Source of the DNA: Clostridia bacterium
GTDB taxonomy: Bacteria > Bacillota_A > Clostridia > Christensenellales > CAG-138
Direction of reading: 5' to 3'
Length of the DNA: 5,769 bases
Assembly (NCBI GenBank): GCA_017553815.1
Contig: JAFZJT010000248.1
Span: 1 to 5,769, forward strand
Shown: positions 2-5,769 of the stretch, piece by piece
How positions within the stretch are numbered: position 1 is the first letter of the stretch
How the letters are laid out: each line of letters begins with the position of its first letter
Notes under the pieces: generated by a model
Database searches by the model: none
Seen by the model: only the letters and a program-made list of their open reading frames with translations
What the model was told of the DNA's origin: nothing
Position numbers and translations under genes: made by a program

Positions 2-262
2 CTCTTTTCTTTAGATACCGATAACAGGATCACGAAGGAGCTGGATGAAATCATAATCAAGAACGGATTTGCCGCGGCAATGATTGAGCGACGCACTTCG
101 CTGGATATGACGCAAAAAGAAATGGCTGATTACCTTGACGTATCGCAGCCTACTGTGTGCCGATTGGAAAGCGCCGTTTATCCGCTGTCGATCAAGTTTC
201 TATGCGAGCTGTGCGAAAAACTTGATATGAAAATGCAGTTTTCTCTTTCCTTGGTCGATTGA
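2..262 (+). CDS. XRE-like helix-turn-helix protein, 5' end outside window
   Basis: The frame is open from the left edge to a TGA at 260-262, giving 86 visible residues. The segment around TQKEMADYLDVSQPTVCRLE (codons at about 110-169) is a classic Cro/CI-type helix-turn-helix: a TQ start to helix 2, then SQPTV in the recognition helix, then RLE. The protein ends soon after the domain with a short hydrophobic tail, so this is a small DNA-binding protein or the C-terminal HTH of a longer one. An internal ATG at 80 has no recognisable ribosome binding site, and the residues before it (ending KNGFAAA) read naturally as helix 1 of the same domain, so the true start probably lies beyond the left edge. 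HigA-type antitoxins and simple transcription regulators both look like this, and the visible part cannot separate them. The HTH call is firm; the role is unknown. Confidence 0.75.
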   Translation, partial: LFSLDTDNRITKELDEIIIKNGFAAAMIERRTSLDMTQKEMADYLDVSQPTVCRLESAVYPLSIKFLCELCEKLDMKMQFSLSLVD

Positions 263-347: not shown

Positions 348-710
348 TCATTTTCGAGAGCGATTGATTGTTTTCCGGTTTTCGCGCAGCGTTTGTTTGA
401 GCGTTACGACCGTGTCATATAACACCCGTCTTTCGTATTCGGTGCAATCTGCGAGAAGCTCTGAAAAAAGCACGTTGCTATGAGCGGGCGTATAGTTCAG
501 GTTGTCGGTCAACAGGTAATCCGCGCTGGTGTTCAAAGTGTTTGCGATCAGCACAAGTGTTTCCAAGCTCAGACTTTTTTCTCCACTTTCGATACGGGAG
601 ATATAAGAGACCGAACGGTCAATCCGATCTGCCAGCTCGGATTGTGTGATTCGCTGTTTCTTCCGCAAACCACGGATGTACGTTCCAATAGAGATGTAGT
701 TGAGTGCCAT
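348..710 (-). CDS. XRE/Cro-CI family transcriptional regulator
   Basis: A complete 120-residue protein. Residues 6-66 form a Cro/CI helix-turn-helix: IRGLRKKQRITQSELADRID, then SVSYISRIESGEKSLSLETL, then a helix ending in SADYLL. This is the standard small XRE repressor fold, binding operator DNA as a dimer. The tail (about 79-110, containing NVLFSELLADCTEYERRVL) is a helical extension shared with the divergent regulator at 845-1204 (AIFSDILSDCSLGEQNAIL), so the two are paralogs and the tail may mediate dimerisation. The start is well supported: AAAGGAGG (bases 719-726 read on the minus strand) lies 8 bases before the ATG. The end of the protein is very basic (ENRKTINRSRK). Gene order suggests autoregulation through the shared intergenic region, perhaps also regulation of the right-hand genes; that is inference. 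A prophage or integrative-element repressor is the most likely identity. Confidence 0.85.
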   Translation of the reverse strand: MALNYISIGTYIRGLRKKQRITQSELADRIDRSVSYISRIESGEKSLSLETLVLIANTLNTSADYLLTDNLNYTPAHSNVLFSELLADCTEYERRVLYDTVVTLKQTLRENRKTINRSRK

Positions 711-781: not shown

Positions 782-830
782 TATACGTTTGAGGAAGATA
801 TTGATAAACTTTTAAGTTAGAAAATGGGGA

Positions 831-836
831 AGGAGG
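831..836 (+). promoter_or_regulatory. Ribosome binding site fixing the start at 845
   Basis: AGGAGG ends 8 bases before the ATG at 845. It lies downstream of an in-frame ATG at 824, which therefore cannot use it, so the shorter protein is preferred. An in-frame GTG at 842 is a less likely alternative. Confidence 0.8.
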
Positions 837-844
837 CGACTGTG

Positions 845-1204
845 ATGGCAGATTATGATCAGGAATTGCTGAAGAAAATCGGCGAGCGTATTCGAGATAA
901 AAGAATTGCTCTCGGCATGAGCCAAGCAGAACTTGCCGTCAAAGCCGGGCTATCACTTCCTCGCGTCAGCAAGATCGAACACGCGAAAGTTGAGATGAAG
1001 CTGACAACCTTCATAAAAGTTGCGGAGGCGCTCCAAGTATCTACCGATGAGCTGATTCAGGCGAACGTCCCCTCCACCGGCGAAATGAACAAAGCGATCT
1101 TTTCAGACATTTTAAGTGACTGTTCATTAGGGGAGCAAAACGCGATCCTCGCTACTGTGAAGCAGATGAAAACCGCTATGCGGGTCAATCAAGACAAAGA
1201 GTAA
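845..1204 (+). CDS. XRE/Cro-CI family transcriptional regulator, paralog of the divergent gene
   Basis: From the ATG at 845 the protein has 119 residues. Residues 12-71 form the helix-turn-helix: RIRDKRIALGMSQAELAVKA, then LSLPRVSKIEHAK, then a helix ending STDELI. A short tail (about 86-112, AIFSDILSDCSLGEQNAILA) corresponds to the tail of the regulator at 348-710, so the pair probably arose by duplication, although their recognition helices differ (SLPRVSKIE here, SVSYISRIE there), implying different operators. Head-to-head placement over a shared control region is reminiscent of CI/Cro pairs. A hairpin terminator follows 23 bases after the stop, so this gene is probably transcribed separately from the recombinase operon, though read-through could link them. 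Function as a DNA-binding regulator is secure by family; its targets are not visible. Confidence 0.85.
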   Translation: MADYDQELLKKIGERIRDKRIALGMSQAELAVKAGLSLPRVSKIEHAKVEMKLTTFIKVAEALQVSTDELIQANVPSTGEMNKAIFSDILSDCSLGEQNAILATVKQMKTAMRVNQDKE

Positions 1205-1352: not shown

Positions 1353-1943
1353 ATGGAAGAATTAGATGTAATGTCAAAGCTCAGCAACGTGTTTGGCTCG
1401 CTTATGCAGCCAAATAAGGATGTTGCTTACATAGAGAAGATCAATAAACATAAGCAATGGCTGGCGACCATCCGACATGAGCATCCAAGTCCTCATAAGA
1501 AGTACAAGATTGGCGTCTATATTCGGTATTTTAATCAGACCAAGTATGACGACTACTTGAAATACCATATTCAGCAATTCTCTGACACAATCGCACTATG
1601 CCCAAATTGGACGCTTGTTGGCTTCTATGTGGATGAAGGCAGCGTAGCGCCGCGTATGGAAACCGCGCCTGAATGGTGCAGACTGTTAGGAGATTGTTTC
1701 GACGGCAAGGTAGATTTGATCATAACGCAAAAGGTGTCGAATGTTTCAAGGACGCCGGATGAGATAGCCTTTTTAGCGAGAATTCTTGCGGCGCAGAAGC
1801 ATCCGATTGGGATTTATTTCGTTTCGGAGGATTTGTTCACCTTGGCTTCTTACTATCAGGAGGATCTGCGAGATACAGAGTTCCTGCTGGATAAAGAGAC
1901 GGGAAAGCTATTAGTGGAAAATGAGGAGCCGGACATCGAATGA
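1353..1943 (+). CDS. Catalytically dead resolvase-domain protein (serine recombinase paralog)
   Basis: This 196-residue protein is a serine recombinase N-terminal domain without the DNA-binding domains that normally follow. Residues 51-164 align with residues 49-163 of the recombinase encoded next. Shared blocks include PNWTLVGFYVDEG (84-96; PNWKLVEIYADEG in the neighbour), GKVDLIITQKVS (118-129; GKLDLIVTKSVS) and HPIGIYFVSEDLFTL (150-164). The catalytic motif YARVST of the neighbour reads YIRYFN here (56-61), so the nucleophilic serine is Phe60. The conserved arginine after KSVS is Asn130, while Arg58 and Arg133 are kept. DNA cleavage is therefore very unlikely. A 50-residue leader precedes the domain, and an acidic tail (ENEEPDIE) ends it. 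ATG 1353 is chosen because AGGTGG (1343-1348) precedes it; the frame extends upstream to a TTG at 1245, but that lies inside a terminator hairpin. The stop overlaps the next start as ATGA. A likely role is as a regulatory or structural partner of the active recombinase (inference). Confidence 0.85.
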   Translation: MEELDVMSKLSNVFGSLMQPNKDVAYIEKINKHKQWLATIRHEHPSPHKKYKIGVYIRYFNQTKYDDYLKYHIQQFSDTIALCPNWTLVGFYVDEGSVAPRMETAPEWCRLLGDCFDGKVDLIITQKVSNVSRTPDEIAFLARILAAQKHPIGIYFVSEDLFTLASYYQEDLRDTEFLLDKETGKLLVENEEPDIE

Positions 1944-3796
1944 ACGATACTAATAGGAGAGAGCGAATCAAGGCTGAAAAAGAACGGCTCAAAAGAAGGA
2001 TTCGCGTTACCGTAGATACCAATACATACGAATATATCCCGGAAAAGAAGCCATTTGATGTTTTTGAGGATATTGATACGCATCAAAGGGTCGGCATCTA
2101 TGCGCGTGTCTCCACGGATAATCTTGAACAGACCTCCTCCTATGAATTGCAGAAGAAGTATTACGAGGAGTTTGTAACGAAGCATCCGAATTGGAAGCTG
2201 GTCGAGATATATGCGGACGAAGGGATCAGCGGTACGTATCTGCGAAAGAGGAAGAACTTTCTGCGAATGATAGAGGATGCCAAAGCAGGCAAGCTGGATC
2301 TGATTGTCACAAAGAGCGTTTCGCGTTTTGCCCGCAATGTGGAAGACTTTCTCGGAACGATCAGGGAATTAACGCATTTGAAGAATCCGGTTGGCGTCCT
2401 ATTTGAGATGGAAATGATCTTTTCGCTGAAAGATGAATCCAAAATGGCGCTTTCTTTTCATGCGACTATGGCGGAGGAAGAATCTCATGTGCGAAGCCGG
2501 AGCATGGAAACCTCTTTGAGAATGCGCCTGGATAACGGGCTGCCGCTTACGCCGAAGCTATATGGGTACACGCATGATGCTGAGGGCAATCTTGTGATCA
2601 ACCCGGAAGAAGCGCCTACGGTAAAGCTGATGTTTTTCATGTACCTGTACGGTTTTTCAAGCCAACAGATTGCCGACGAGCTGAATAAGCTGGAGAAAAA
2701 GACCTACTATGGAAAAGGTGGATGGCTGCCGAGCGTTGTTCTCGGCATTCTCCGAAACGAGCGACATTGCGGTGATGTGCTGACGCGGAAAACGTACACA
2801 CCCGACTTTCACGATCATATCTCACGCCCAAACAGAGGGGATCGTCCGCAAAGCAGGTATTACGATCACCATGAGAGCATAGTCAGCCGTGATGACTACA
2901 TTGCCGTGCAGCACATGATTCAAAACGCACGGTATCGGAATAAGTCAGTATTGCCGGAGTTGTCGGTGATCGAGGACGGGATTCTAAAAGGATTCGTTGT
3001 CATTCATCCGAGATGGGCCGCATTCAAAGAAGCCGAGTACATGCAGGCAGCGCGCAGCGTCCCGAAAACACCCGAACAGGATCAACCACGGGTAATCACC
3101 GTAAAGCCGGGCGACTTTGACTTTCGTGGGTTCGAGATAGCGCGATCCGAGCTGTTGGATACCAATAATCGACCGGCGGTGACATTTAGTAAGGGTCAGA
3201 TAAAGCTGAACGCACCTATCATACGAAAGTACGGCGAGAATAACTATCTTGAACTGCTAATCAACCCGTTGGAAGGAAAGTTTGCGGTACGGAGATCGGA
3301 GAAGGAAAACAAAACCGCAGTTCAGGTTTCCATGCTGCGAAACGGACAATACATTCCGAAGTCGATACCTGCGGCAGCGTTCTATTCGACGATATTTGGG
3401 CTGTTTGATTGGGATTCTGAAATAGGGTATCGGATCATTGGCTCGCTGTACGAGCAGGACGGAGAAAGCGTGTACATTTTCAACCGGTCAGATTCTCAGG
3501 CGCTTATGCACAAGGACATGATGAGTATGGCTGATAAGCAGGGATCAGACGGAGGTGATCTCTCCCTGTCCTATCAAGGAAGAAATGTGCGAGCAATTCA
3601 GGCAGAATGGTTTAACAGCTTTGGGAAACAGTTTTATTTCCATGAGCAAACTTTGATCGAATTGGAATCCCAAAGCGAGCGAGATTGGAAACTGCGTATG
3701 GAGGGGACGACCTTCAGCGCGGGAAAGAAACTGAATGTCACGGGCTTTGACGAACTCAAAGCATATATCTGGAAAGAACTCGGAAAGGAGAATTAA
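1940..3796 (+). CDS. Large serine recombinase (site-specific integrase/excisionase type)
   Basis: This 618-residue enzyme belongs to the large serine recombinases, which cut and rejoin two att sites through a 5' phosphoserine intermediate. After an unusual charged leader (1-49), the resolvase domain spans about 50-195. It contains YARVST (54-59, nucleophile Ser58, with Arg56), YADEGISGT (91-99) and KSVSRFARN (125-133, with Arg129 and Arg132). The residues expected for catalysis are thus present. A Recombinase (PF07508-like) DNA-binding domain follows at about 203-330, including GDVLTRKTYTPDF (278-290) and YYDHHESIVS (307-316). The usual zinc ribbon is missing: the only cysteine in the protein is Cys277. 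In its place is LPELSVIEDGILKGFV (338-353) followed by a long C-terminal region (about 391-575) resembling the two small proteins downstream. A GAGGAG at 1923-1928 lies 11 bases before the start, and the ATGA overlap suggests translational coupling. Probably the integrase of a mobile element or of a DNA rearrangement; no att site was identified. Confidence 0.96.
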   Translation: MNDTNRRERIKAEKERLKRRIRVTVDTNTYEYIPEKKPFDVFEDIDTHQRVGIYARVSTDNLEQTSSYELQKKYYEEFVTKHPNWKLVEIYADEGISGTYLRKRKNFLRMIEDAKAGKLDLIVTKSVSRFARNVEDFLGTIRELTHLKNPVGVLFEMEMIFSLKDESKMALSFHATMAEEESHVRSRSMETSLRMRLDNGLPLTPKLYGYTHDAEGNLVINPEEAPTVKLMFFMYLYGFSSQQIADELNKLEKKTYYGKGGWLPSVVLGILRNERHCGDVLTRKTYTPDFHDHISRPNRGDRPQSRYYDHHESIVSRDDYIAVQHMIQNARYRNKSVLPELSVIEDGILKGFVVIHPRWAAFKEAEYMQAARSVPKTPEQDQPRVITVKPGDFDFRGFEIARSELLDTNNRPAVTFSKGQIKLNAPIIRKYGENNYLELLINPLEGKFAVRRSEKENKTAVQVSMLRNGQYIPKSIPAAAFYSTIFGLFDWDSEIGYRIIGSLYEQDGESVYIFNRSDSQALMHKDMMSMADKQGSDGGDLSLSYQGRNVRAIQAEWFNSFGKQFYFHEQTLIELESQSERDWKLRMEGTTFSAGKKLNVTGFDELKAYIWKELGKEN

Positions 3797-3802
3797 CCGG
3801 GA

Positions 3803-4657
3803 ATGGAAAGACCAACCGATCATGATGAACACGGGAACAACACTTCCTCCGTGCCTCCTTCATTGGCAGGAGAGCATATCATCGAATTAGGAGATCATGT
3901 AGATTTCTCAAACTTTCAGGTTGTTCGCGGTGAATTCTATGCGGACATACGGAGCCCGTATATCACCATTAACAAGTATAAGGTGTATGTAAACTCTGCC
4001 TGTCTCCGGCTGTTTCCGGATGCGGAGTATGTATTTATTCTTGTCAACAAAGAATCCAAGCTGATTGTTTTGCGTCCGTGTGAACCGTTTGCTCGTGACG
4101 CCTATCGCTGGAGAAAGGAATCGAAAGGCAAGATCGTCCCTCGGCAAGGCGTATGCAAGCTCTTGTTCGCGCTTGTGATGAACTTGATGCATTGGAACCC
4201 GGATATCCGTTATAAGCTGCTGGGCAGTATAGCCCATGCGAACAATGAGTATGTACTTGTTTTTGACCTCACAACTCCCAAGTTTTTTCCCACAATACAG
4301 GGCGAAGGGCAGGAATCAAAAGTTTCCAAAACAGGAGTTTATCCGGAGGATTGGAGCGGTCAGTTTGGACTTCCCTATTATGAACACCAACGGTATATGC
4401 AGATCAACGTACTCGATGGGTTTACCGTGATAGCGCAGAGCCCTTCTACAAGGAATACGGAATCGACTAATACGGCACAAGGAGGATTTGATTATGAGCG
4501 AACAGAATCAAGAACTGATCCTGACGATCGACATGAAGAAGAACAGGATTCGGGTAAACAGGCAAACGCTTGCGGCGATAGGAATGCCCAACAGTATCCT
4601 GCTATTGGTCGATCCGCGGGAAATGTCTATAGCGGTGAAGGGGACGAATCGGCTTGA
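3803..4657 (+). CDS. Stand-alone paralog of the recombinase C-terminal domain
   Basis: I recognise no named family, but residues 31-195 resemble residues 392-568 of the preceding recombinase. Matching blocks are YITINKYKVYVNSACLR (53-69) with AVTFSKGQIKLNAPIIR (413-429), FILVNKESKLIVLRP (78-92) with LLINPLEGKFAVRR (439-452), W131 and YKLLGS (137-142) with W491 and YRIIGS (497-502), and W-x3-FG-x2-YY-x-H (184-195) with W-x3-FG-x2-FY-x-H (557-568). No catalytic domain is present. The domain appears beta-rich, possibly a DNA-binding or oligomerisation module (inference). The start ATG lies 12 bases after AAGGAG (3785-3790) and 6 bases after the recombinase stop. The last 55 residues overlap the next gene in another frame and look like low-complexity hydrophilic sequence (RTDPDDRHEEEQDSGKQ), so the natural end may lie near 4470-4490, with the stop lost by mutation or a frameshift. 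Confidence 0.7.
   Translation: MERPTDHDEHGNNTSSVPPSLAGEHIIELGDHVDFSNFQVVRGEFYADIRSPYITINKYKVYVNSACLRLFPDAEYVFILVNKESKLIVLRPCEPFARDAYRWRKESKGKIVPRQGVCKLLFALVMNLMHWNPDIRYKLLGSIAHANNEYVLVFDLTTPKFFPTIQGEGQESKVSKTGVYPEDWSGQFGLPYYEHQRYMQINVLDGFTVIAQSPSTRNTESTNTAQGGFDYERTESRTDPDDRHEEEQDSGKQANACGDRNAQQYPAIGRSAGNVYSGEGDESA
4479..4485 (+). promoter_or_regulatory. Ribosome binding site fixing the start at 4494
   Basis: AAGGAGG ends 8 bases before the ATG at 4494, ideal spacing. An in-frame TTG at 4488 is only 2 bases from this site and is rejected. The site lies inside the reading frame of the upstream gene, which supports independent initiation. Confidence 0.85.
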
Positions 4658-4865
4658 GAAGCAAACTGACTTGCAGATGATCCAGTTTCGTCTGAAGAAC
4701 CGTAGCCGTTCGATTGAGGTGTACAGCCACGCTCTTGTTACGCAATTACGGATACTTGAGCCCAAGCTCAAAGTTACAGAGGTTTATCATCTGCGAGGGA
4801 GAGCGTTTCCGGTAGAAAGCATTGCGGTTTTCTCTTTGCAGTCAGCAGAACCAGTATCTGTGTAA
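4494..4865 (+). CDS. Second small protein related to the recombinase C-terminal domain
   Basis: This 123-residue protein of unknown function is a minimal version of the domain seen in the recombinase C-terminus and in the preceding gene. ILTIDMKKNRIRVNRQTL (9-26) and ILLLVDPREMSIAVKG (35-50) correspond to AVTFSKGQIKLNAPII (413-428) and LELLINPLEGKFAVRR (437-452) of the recombinase. YHLRGR (98-103) followed by a final strand IAVFSL (110-115) corresponds to YRIIGS (497-502) and VYIFNR (511-516). The terminal W-x3-FG block of the other two is absent. The pattern G/N-x-I-x-V-N followed by strands recalls AbrB/SpoVT-like DNA-binding hairpins, but that is only a loose resemblance. A strong ribosome binding site supports the start. 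The start of the ParB-like gene follows the stop by 4 bases, so the two are probably translationally coupled. An accessory role in recombination, such as heteromer formation with the recombinase C-terminus or control of its direction, is inference. Confidence 0.7.
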   Translation: MSEQNQELILTIDMKKNRIRVNRQTLAAIGMPNSILLLVDPREMSIAVKGTNRLEKQTDLQMIQFRLKNRSRSIEVYSHALVTQLRILEPKLKVTEVYHLRGRAFPVESIAVFSLQSAEPVSV

Positions 4866-4869
4866 ATCA

Positions 4870-5769
4870 ATGGATCGGGAACTACACATTGACAAAGAAT
4901 TTCAAATGCTGATCCGACCACTATCCAAAAAGGAGTATAAGCAATTAGAAGCGAATCTGCTTGTGGAGGGGTGTTTAGATCCGATTATCGTATGGGGCGA
5001 CATTATTCTGGACGGTCAGCACCGATATTCGATCTGCCGTAAACATCATCTATCCTTTGAAATCAAAGAAAAGGATTTTGAAAGCAGAGAGGAAGCCATC
5101 GTATGGATTTGCGCGCATCAGCTCGGTCGCAGGAACCTTTCCGAGGAAGCCATGAAGTTCCTGATCGGTGTTCAGTACGAAAAAGAGAAGGTGGTCGCAA
5201 AGCGGAGAAATGAAGCGGGAACGAATCAATACACCCCTGCCGAAAAACGAAAAGAATCGTCGCAGAGACCTATGATTGCAACGACAACTGCTCAACGGAT
5301 CGCGGAAGAACAGCACTTGTCACCGGCTACGGTTGTGAAATATGGGCAGTATGCTTCTGCACTACGATCCATCAGTGAAAAAGAGCCGACGCTGCTCCCG
5401 AAGATTCTATCAGGACGCTATAAAATCTCGCATCAAAGCATCCTGAACCTGTCGAAGATGCCAAAGGAGGATGTCAAAAAGGTCAATCGAAACATCGAGA
5501 ATGACGAAGCATCGTTCGTAAAGTATAAGCATACGCGCACTGAAATCAATGAACAACTCAGTACGAAAGAGCATTTTGTTCTCCCGGAAACGACAGTAAA
5601 AACGAAACCCCAATATGATCCTGATTCGGAAGTGACAGGGTTGATGCTGACAGTTCCGTCGTGGATAGGATCTATGGAACGTGTCCGAACAAAAGTCAAT
5701 CTGTCCGATGTTGCAGACATAACGAAAGATAAGCTGTGCAGAACGCTTCACTTGCTAATGGTTGAAGCA
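4870..5769 (+). CDS. ParB-like nuclease/partition domain protein, 3' end outside window
   Basis: The frame is open from the ATG at 4870 to the right edge (300 codons, no stop). Residues 13-90 form a ParB N-terminal-like domain: IRPLSKKEYKQLEANLLVEG (15-34), DPIIVW (37-42) and ILDGQHRYSIC (46-56), the last being the signature loop. A helical region continues through LGRRNLSEEAMKFLIG (85-100). A predicted helix-turn-helix follows at about 139-165 (TTAQRIAEEQHLSPATVVKY), typical of KorB/Spo0J-type DNA-binding proteins. The GERR-type box of chromosomal ParB is replaced by DGQHR, placing it among the divergent ParB-like proteins common on mobile elements. The first 120 residues are conserved in style; the remainder is unassigned. 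The start has no clear ribosome binding site and lies 4 bases after the previous stop, so translation probably depends on coupling. No ParA is visible. Roles could include element maintenance, transcription control or DNA organisation for recombination. Confidence 0.85.
   Translation, partial: MDRELHIDKEFQMLIRPLSKKEYKQLEANLLVEGCLDPIIVWGDIILDGQHRYSICRKHHLSFEIKEKDFESREEAIVWICAHQLGRRNLSEEAMKFLIGVQYEKEKVVAKRRNEAGTNQYTPAEKRKESSQRPMIATTTAQRIAEEQHLSPATVVKYGQYASALRSISEKEPTLLPKILSGRYKISHQSILNLSKMPKEDVKKVNRNIENDEASFVKYKHTRTEINEQLSTKEHFVLPETTVKTKPQYDPDSEVTGLMLTVPSWIGSMERVRTKVNLSDVADITKDKLCRTLHLLMVEA

Follow-up and report, generated by a model that had tools for sequence, protein, structure and literature searches.

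A conserved serine recombinase operon of Clostridia and gut phages, with two stand-alone copies of the recombinase's C-terminal domain, suggests a DNA-rearranging enzyme of several parts

Serine integrases that have been studied in depth act as single proteins, and a coiled coil together with an unrelated partner sets their direction. Large serine recombinases of the phiC31 and A118 type combine a resolvase catalytic domain (PF00239), a recombinase domain (PF07508), and a zinc ribbon (PF13408). In ordinary serine integrases the zinc domain and the coiled coil decide which bound dimers pair, and the directionality factor of phiC31 integrase binds the zinc domain and the base of the coiled coil, as set out in the excerpted text of PMC5814800. 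XisF of the cyanobacterial fdxN element requires two extra proteins from the same element (PMC4874684, in part), and catalytically inactive subunits of Tn3 resolvase function at accessory sites (PMC9943657, in part). Here we analyze an operon in a 5,769-nucleotide stretch of DNA (the window) from a Clostridia bacterium (contig JAFZJT010000248.1), in which a serine recombinase, B, is followed by two genes, C and D, that copy its C-terminal domain, and preceded by a gene, A, that copies its catalytic domain. A recombinase with two copies of its tail domain, often joined by a dead catalytic copy, in one conserved operon suggests a DNA-rearranging enzyme of several parts.

B (1940..3796, plus strand; 618 residues) resembles the large serine recombinases in its catalytic domain (PF00239, E value 4.9e-24), its recombinase domain (PF07508, E value 4e-18), and its intact active site: Ser58 is kept in 141 of 142 full-length B proteins, and Arg129 and Arg132 in all 142. 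It differs from them in having no detected zinc ribbon, in ending in a different domain, which we call X, and in the company of three extra genes that copy its two ends. PF13408 was unmatched in B of the window (E value up to 1) and in the divergent B of locus L205 (0.01), and was found in all four neighboring recombinases scanned. The place where a zinc ribbon usually follows the recombinase domain is occupied in B by residues 349–362 (2984..3025, plus strand; LKGFVVIHPRWAAF), a stretch with a conserved LKGF..NPRW that is free of Cys in the window. As for the coiled coil, the predicted model of B residues 336–618 contains no long helix pair. Elsewhere, one of two neighboring phage recombinases at locus L161 (9032–10537) matched the zinc ribbon family in two stretches. 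A seemingly natural split of B into two open reading frames at locus L208 (7080–7103) was set aside: the break sits within consecutive A bases, which makes a sequencing error or frameshift probable.

B was also compared with other described systems. As with XisF, XisH, and XisI, the recombinase is accompanied by two extra proteins; the XisF model, however, scores 29.5 bits on B against a cut-off of 375, and Pfam comparisons of C and D listed neither XisH nor XisI. CcrA/CcrB is the top NCBIfam family for B (CcrB, 81 bits, residues 48–284), but its cut-off of 900 bits is far off and the match stops short of the X domain. A recombination directionality factor binds its integrase and switches it from attP x attB to attL x attR. 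The directionality factors gp3 and gp44 are small proteins acting on the last integrase domain (PMC5814800, excerpted text), a role that C and D may parallel; unlike them, C and D are paralogous to that very domain and are two in number.

The original prediction held that B, C, and D share a beta-rich block. In B this is the X domain, residues 394–568 (3119..3643, plus strand), ending in W-x3-FG-x2-FY-x-H and delimited by BLASTP, profile comparison, and a predicted model. C (3803..4657, plus strand) is a stand-alone X domain (residues ~34–211, from BLASTP and profile comparison) with a poorly conserved tail, and D (4494..4865, plus strand) is a minimal stand-alone X domain of 123 residues, recognized by profile comparison and its predicted model. 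With Pfam at E values up to 1, C had no match and D only chance-level ones. Single sequences align B residues 394–515 with C 34–155 ungapped at 22% identity (BLASTP, E value 3e-13), B with D weakly (E value 0.002 over 48 columns), and C with D not at all. Because the B-D match was weak and C-D absent, we built ortholog alignments and compared profiles, each from 81 rows (B residues 336–618, C, and D). Rows were chosen below 80% mutual identity in B and comprise 81 of 82 representatives, L137 having been dropped by hand for its odd lengths. Profile comparison, which the original prediction had named as the check, gave significant hhalign matches for every pair: B-C at 100% probability (E value 8.8e-40), C-D at 98.8% (1.2e-16), and B-D at 98.7% (2.1e-16). 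Twelve control pairs, which set the X alignments against those of E, F, or A, paired E with F, or used column-reversed alignments, all stayed at or below 1.2%.

The named motifs also hold up. In the B alignment F226 and G227 of W-x3-FG are invariant and W222 is at least 90% conserved; in C the corresponding W184, F188, and G189 are all invariant; and the Y and G of the turn near the domain end are at least 90% conserved in B, C, and D alike. Predicted structures, by which the prediction was also to be judged, nearly agree in the order of secondary-structure elements for D and the B end, which is likeness of order rather than of superposed coordinates. In both models an opening pair of strands leads to a helix, followed by two further strand pairs, a second helix, and a closing pair; one strand of the third pair is broken in two in B. 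Mean predicted local distance difference test (pLDDT) is 89 for D, and for B residues 336–618 it is 79 overall but exceeds 90 across most of the X core. The missing C-D match and the B-D E value of only 0.002 in BLASTP could be taken to mean that the likeness of the three regions is chance or convergence; the profile comparisons with their 12 negative controls and the shared motifs contradict this, and we give it a vanishingly small probability.

Searches of the PDB for sequence relatives of the three alignments returned a best E value of 0.2, for the B end only. Sliding-clamp matches from Foldseek were rejected as not credible, with template modeling (TM) scores below 0.3 and root-mean-square deviations of ~14–23 Å. 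Against a viral structure library, the D model matched uncharacterized phage proteins, such as Gp105 of Lactococcus phage KSY1, at a TM score of ~0.6 and a probability of 1.00, so the predicted fold of D may be widespread in phages.

A claim that the C-terminal domain was duplicated within the operon fared less well than the homology itself, which is real. In a tree of 95 X domains, the 32 from B form one clade (100/97) and the 31 from D another (100/99), while the 32 from C do not group together, those of the divergent sets L205 and L208 lying nearer to B; the alignment is short, some branches are long, and the bootstrap was not fully settled. Because B-X and D fall in separate clades, the tree points to one old triplication rather than local duplication, and allows either fusion or fission as its direction. 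All genes of the operon are under purifying selection. Median ratios of nonsynonymous to synonymous substitution rates (dN/dS), with the number of pairs in brackets, are as follows: A, 0.072 (13); B, 0.061 (37); C, 0.073 (28); D, 0.105 (23); E, 0.087 (32); and F, 0.035 (28). They were calculated on 38 selected pairs of 67, after dropping incomplete genes, saturated comparisons, and dS up to 0.1, and uncorrected for gene overlaps.

The second half of the original prediction concerned A (1353..1943, plus strand), read as a stand-alone copy of the N-terminal domain of B. That homology is borne out by BLASTP (31% identity, E value 2e-16), with PF00239 matched below its cut-off (3.5e-4); what A does not share is the catalytic serine, missing in the window and in all 68 orthologues. 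The residue corresponding to Arg129 of B is Asn in the window; it is Asn in 67 of the 68 and Gly in one, and new conserved motifs such as YIRYFNQTK are present. Since A has lost active-site residues yet keeps a dN/dS of 0.072, its sequence record indicates that it is a conserved pseudoenzyme, not a gene in decay.

In the window, A to E all lie on the plus strand; A overlaps B by 4 bases, 6 bases separate B from C and 4 separate D from E, and D overlaps the C tail by 164 bases in a different frame, its start codon preceded by a Shine-Dalgarno-like aaggagg. E (4870..5769, plus strand), open at the window edge, is a ParB-like protein by a match to phrog_2159 (E value 0.001), and is unmatched in Pfam at E values up to 1. 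In relatives the operon extends beyond the window end with F (DUF6551). Across loci, with gene starts placed at the first start codon, median gaps are -8 bases for B-C, -8 for C-D, -4 for D-E, and -1 for E-F, so the genes mostly overlap.

The linkage of B, C, and D is nearly obligate. Among 164 C-anchored sources (80 of 168 genome loci, 80 of 98 viral loci, three annotated phage regions, and the window), 146 carry contiguous same-strand B-C-D, and most of the other 18 appear, judging by their gene-order strings, to start within or downstream of B. Viral fetches anchored on B and D, meant to reduce the bias of anchoring on C, share many contigs with the C set; B-C-D is contiguous in 77 of 80 B-anchored loci (80 of 94 kept), the others being one that reads as broken frames and two checked as lacking D, and in 40 of 45 D-anchored loci (all 45 kept), the other five lying on contigs that begin too late for a whole B. 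E follows D in 145 of the 146 B-C-D loci, and A is present in 68. In each of 12 genomes searched with C, a search blind to a lone D, every match was C itself or the X end of the adjoining B. Prevalence is low: two of 98 evenly drawn Clostridia genomes, with the centre genome excluded, match at an E value of 1e-20, both with C and B matches side by side.

We propose that A to D are subunits of one multi-part serine recombinase in which the X subunits set synapsis or direction, a reading that we consider about evenly balanced between right and wrong. B would cut and exchange DNA through its normal catalytic and DNA-binding recombinase domains, an activity predicted from the domains and residues seen, and its X domain would stand in for the zinc ribbon and coiled coil that elsewhere control synapsis. 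As B has X in place of that part and is accompanied by two more X proteins, the simplest view is that B, C, and D assemble via X and share control. C and D may thus co-assemble as extra X subunits with the X domain of B at or near the crossover site, and the three might decide the pairing of two bound dimers, a job done elsewhere by coiled coil and directionality factor. A, where present, may join as an architectural or braking subunit. The reaction would be an additional one in the life of a mobile element, for example multimer resolution or the setting of excision, because most elements examined carry a separate integrase. If true, direction control would be open to subunit-by-subunit study in a natural version without a zinc ribbon and with stand-alone domain copies, and the recombinase might be switchable by adding or omitting small proteins.

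Several points weigh against this proposal. We infer both the physical A to D complex and recombination by B from sequence. A is absent from 78 of the 146 B-C-D loci and is therefore not essential, and D is missing from two of the 80 B-anchored loci. B and the X domains could also simply have an operator or DNA site in common and never assemble into a single complex. Finally, a local recombination site did not emerge: when the 1.5 kb upstream of A/B was compared with the 0.9 kb downstream of F in 107 loci, exact repeats, direct or inverted, mostly reached about the length seen in shuffled sequence, with the exception of a few single loci. Longer inverted matches, of 14–18 bases, occurred in six of the 107 loci, and inverted repeats around the H promoter reached 16 bases in single loci with none widely shared. 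One locus, L006, carries a 40-base direct repeat that resembles a shared hairpin, one copy lying 1.2 kb upstream of A and the other 134 bases downstream of F.

The original prediction had offered a split, multi-subunit complex or competitors of the full enzyme. Joint function is backed by linkage (77 of 80 and 146 of 164 loci), gene overlaps, purifying selection, and a plasmid-borne A-B-C-D set described below, but sequence by itself does not separate a competitor from a subunit. C and D might instead be directionality factors or competitors: B alone would act one way, and C or D would bind it or occupy its X contact, reversing or blocking the reaction. Such factors do bind the last domain of serine integrases (PMC5814800, excerpted text), which C and D copy from within the same operon. 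We nevertheless find this account doubtful, because the excerpted text does not describe known directionality factors as paralogues of an integrase domain, a pair of distinct X paralogues together with a dead catalytic domain exceeds a single factor, and D is missing from two of the 80 B-anchored loci. A quite improbable alternative makes C and D transcription regulators of the MraZ or AbrB kind acting on the operon, with the X domain tethering B to the same operator DNA; neither family is among the Pfam matches that were listed, at E values up to 10, for 81 proteins each of C and D.

E and F form a unit separable from A to D. A Subdoligranulum plasmid carries a very divergent A-B-C-D with no E-F within the 12.5 kb read, and a fecal contig has another with none within 5.4 kb. 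An AAA ATPase gene lies upstream on the plasmid, and upstream ATPase genes of this divergent variant stand at L205 2010–2987 (AAA_25) and L208 5115–6092 (similar-looking). Conversely, Dulem virus 33 (20 kb read) and one further contig carry E-F without A to D, and the Dulem virus 33 record has no C match. Since each set occurs without the other, we treat E-F and A-D as separable modules. F is a DUF6551 protein, the family linked to the ParB-CTPase fold; DUF6551 fusions bind CTP or ATP according to the available portion of PMC12704722, although the words recombinase and integrase are absent from its main text. ParB-like E and F may gate the complex by nucleotide binding. This would extend our proposal to a nucleotide-gated heteromeric serine recombinase, with pairing control spread over B, C, and D, A as brake or scaffold, and ParB-type CTP- or ATP-binding E and F loading or licensing it as a switchable second system beside the integrase; we advance this extension tentatively and regard it as unlikely. 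In one complete genome, E is split by a transposase-like gene on the other strand, by our own reading (L032 8978–11292; gene at 9696–10841).

The settings of the cassette (the operon genes as a unit) bear on whether B is itself an integrase. In 33 loci the sequence extends at least 6 kb beyond F: two minus-strand recombinases lie near the cassette in 22 of them and one in three, and none lies in the DNA covered for the other eight. A 19.6-kb island inside cpaF, which we take to be the tad pilus ATPase gene, is 98.5% identical between Coprococcus comes and Blautia luti (G008 C49, ~27.6–47.2 kb; G009 C122, L189–L195) and splits cpaF at residues 315–318. Besides the cassette it contains a type IIG restriction gene and, at its far end, a tyrosine-recombinase trio. 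A third island has both cpaF halves around it and the same trio, and a fourth was seen from one side only. The islands in the L056 and L061 genomes cut cpaF at the same place. We dropped B as the integrase of these islands because the trio stands at the far end in all three seen at both ends. Riding with different integrases, the cassette is probably not an integrase itself, and on this comparison of settings B is probably not the main integrase of its elements.

B and its partners could still be the integrase of a small mobile cassette that reaches from the regulator gene H through F and is passed on whole between phages and islands. An H-F block of ~5.5 kb, which begins in the H promoter region and closes with a terminator-like hairpin behind F, is 95.7–98.6% identical across three contexts (L046; L039 and L117, which share printed flanks; and L119, on a contig that stops at F), and the flanks of these contexts are at most ~72% alike or unalignable. 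In Anaerotignum neopropionicum our reading of the open reading frames places the cassette alone among chromosomal genes, and that genome has neither a portal nor a terminase match. The blocks are explained equally by homologous exchange, however, no flanking repeats were found, the Anaerotignum copy may be a relic, and another integrase usually lies close by (22 of 33 loci have two minus-strand recombinases, and 3 of 3 cpaF islands have the tyrosine trio); we assign this account only a small probability. As proof of autonomous movement the Anaerotignum cassette was rejected, with flank repeats of at most 10 bases and what we read as a transposase-like start beside F.

Phage genomes supply a further setting. 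C was found in 16 PV0364xx phage records and four fecal contigs, and the six PV records opened, labeled Ca. Heliusvirales, contain a gene row matching B-C-D-E-F in sizes and order. Likeness to these gut phages is incomplete, however: the 60 portal matches listed include 19 PV0364xx records, five of which have no C match, and A is absent from PV036410. Regulators come first where the record reaches, followed by B-C-D-E-F (PV036432 begins just before B), and the cassette genes are annotated as hypothetical, so that our proposal would offer a function for genes so labeled. In Lachnospiraceae-type records a gene pair on the opposite strand, one named integrase, follows the cassette beside the endolysin, the usual place of an integrase; in PV036453 the pair, annotated as integrase and invertase, is placed further along. 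In four of 12 genomes searched, a portal gene and a large terminase gene both occur within ~20–33 kb of the cassette, and conjugation coupling genes lie ~45 kb away in two, which proves nothing. Location between a presumed integrase pair and regulators in phages, and beside a restriction gene in an island, would also suit a defense or superinfection-immunity system of prophages and islands, but A to F are unmatched in PADLOC-DB at E values up to 0.01 and an intact recombinase is an unusual effector, so we rate this very improbable. A search of PMC literature by title and abstract opening, with subscription papers and preprints outside its range, found no paper describing the operon. The words recombinase, integrase, invertase, and ParB are absent from the main text of PMC9226167, and PMC12427128, in its available portion, names Ca. 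Heliusvirales once, without genes.

Upstream of A, the window carries three helix-turn-helix (HTH) genes. The end of an XRE-type gene, open at the window edge (2..262, plus strand; HTH profiles ~32 bits), is followed by h, a divergent regulator of the phage-repressor type (348..710, minus strand; HTH_3, E value 4.7e-16; RstR family, 4e-14, below cut-off), and by H, which heads the operon (824..1204, plus strand; HTH_3, 1.5e-13) and whose exact start codon is unsure. This arrangement is common: with room upstream of B, 94 of 101 loci have a plus-strand HTH gene and 86 of 101 a minus-strand one. One viral contig of 113,553 bases holds two cassette matches, L120 and L131, ~58 kb apart.

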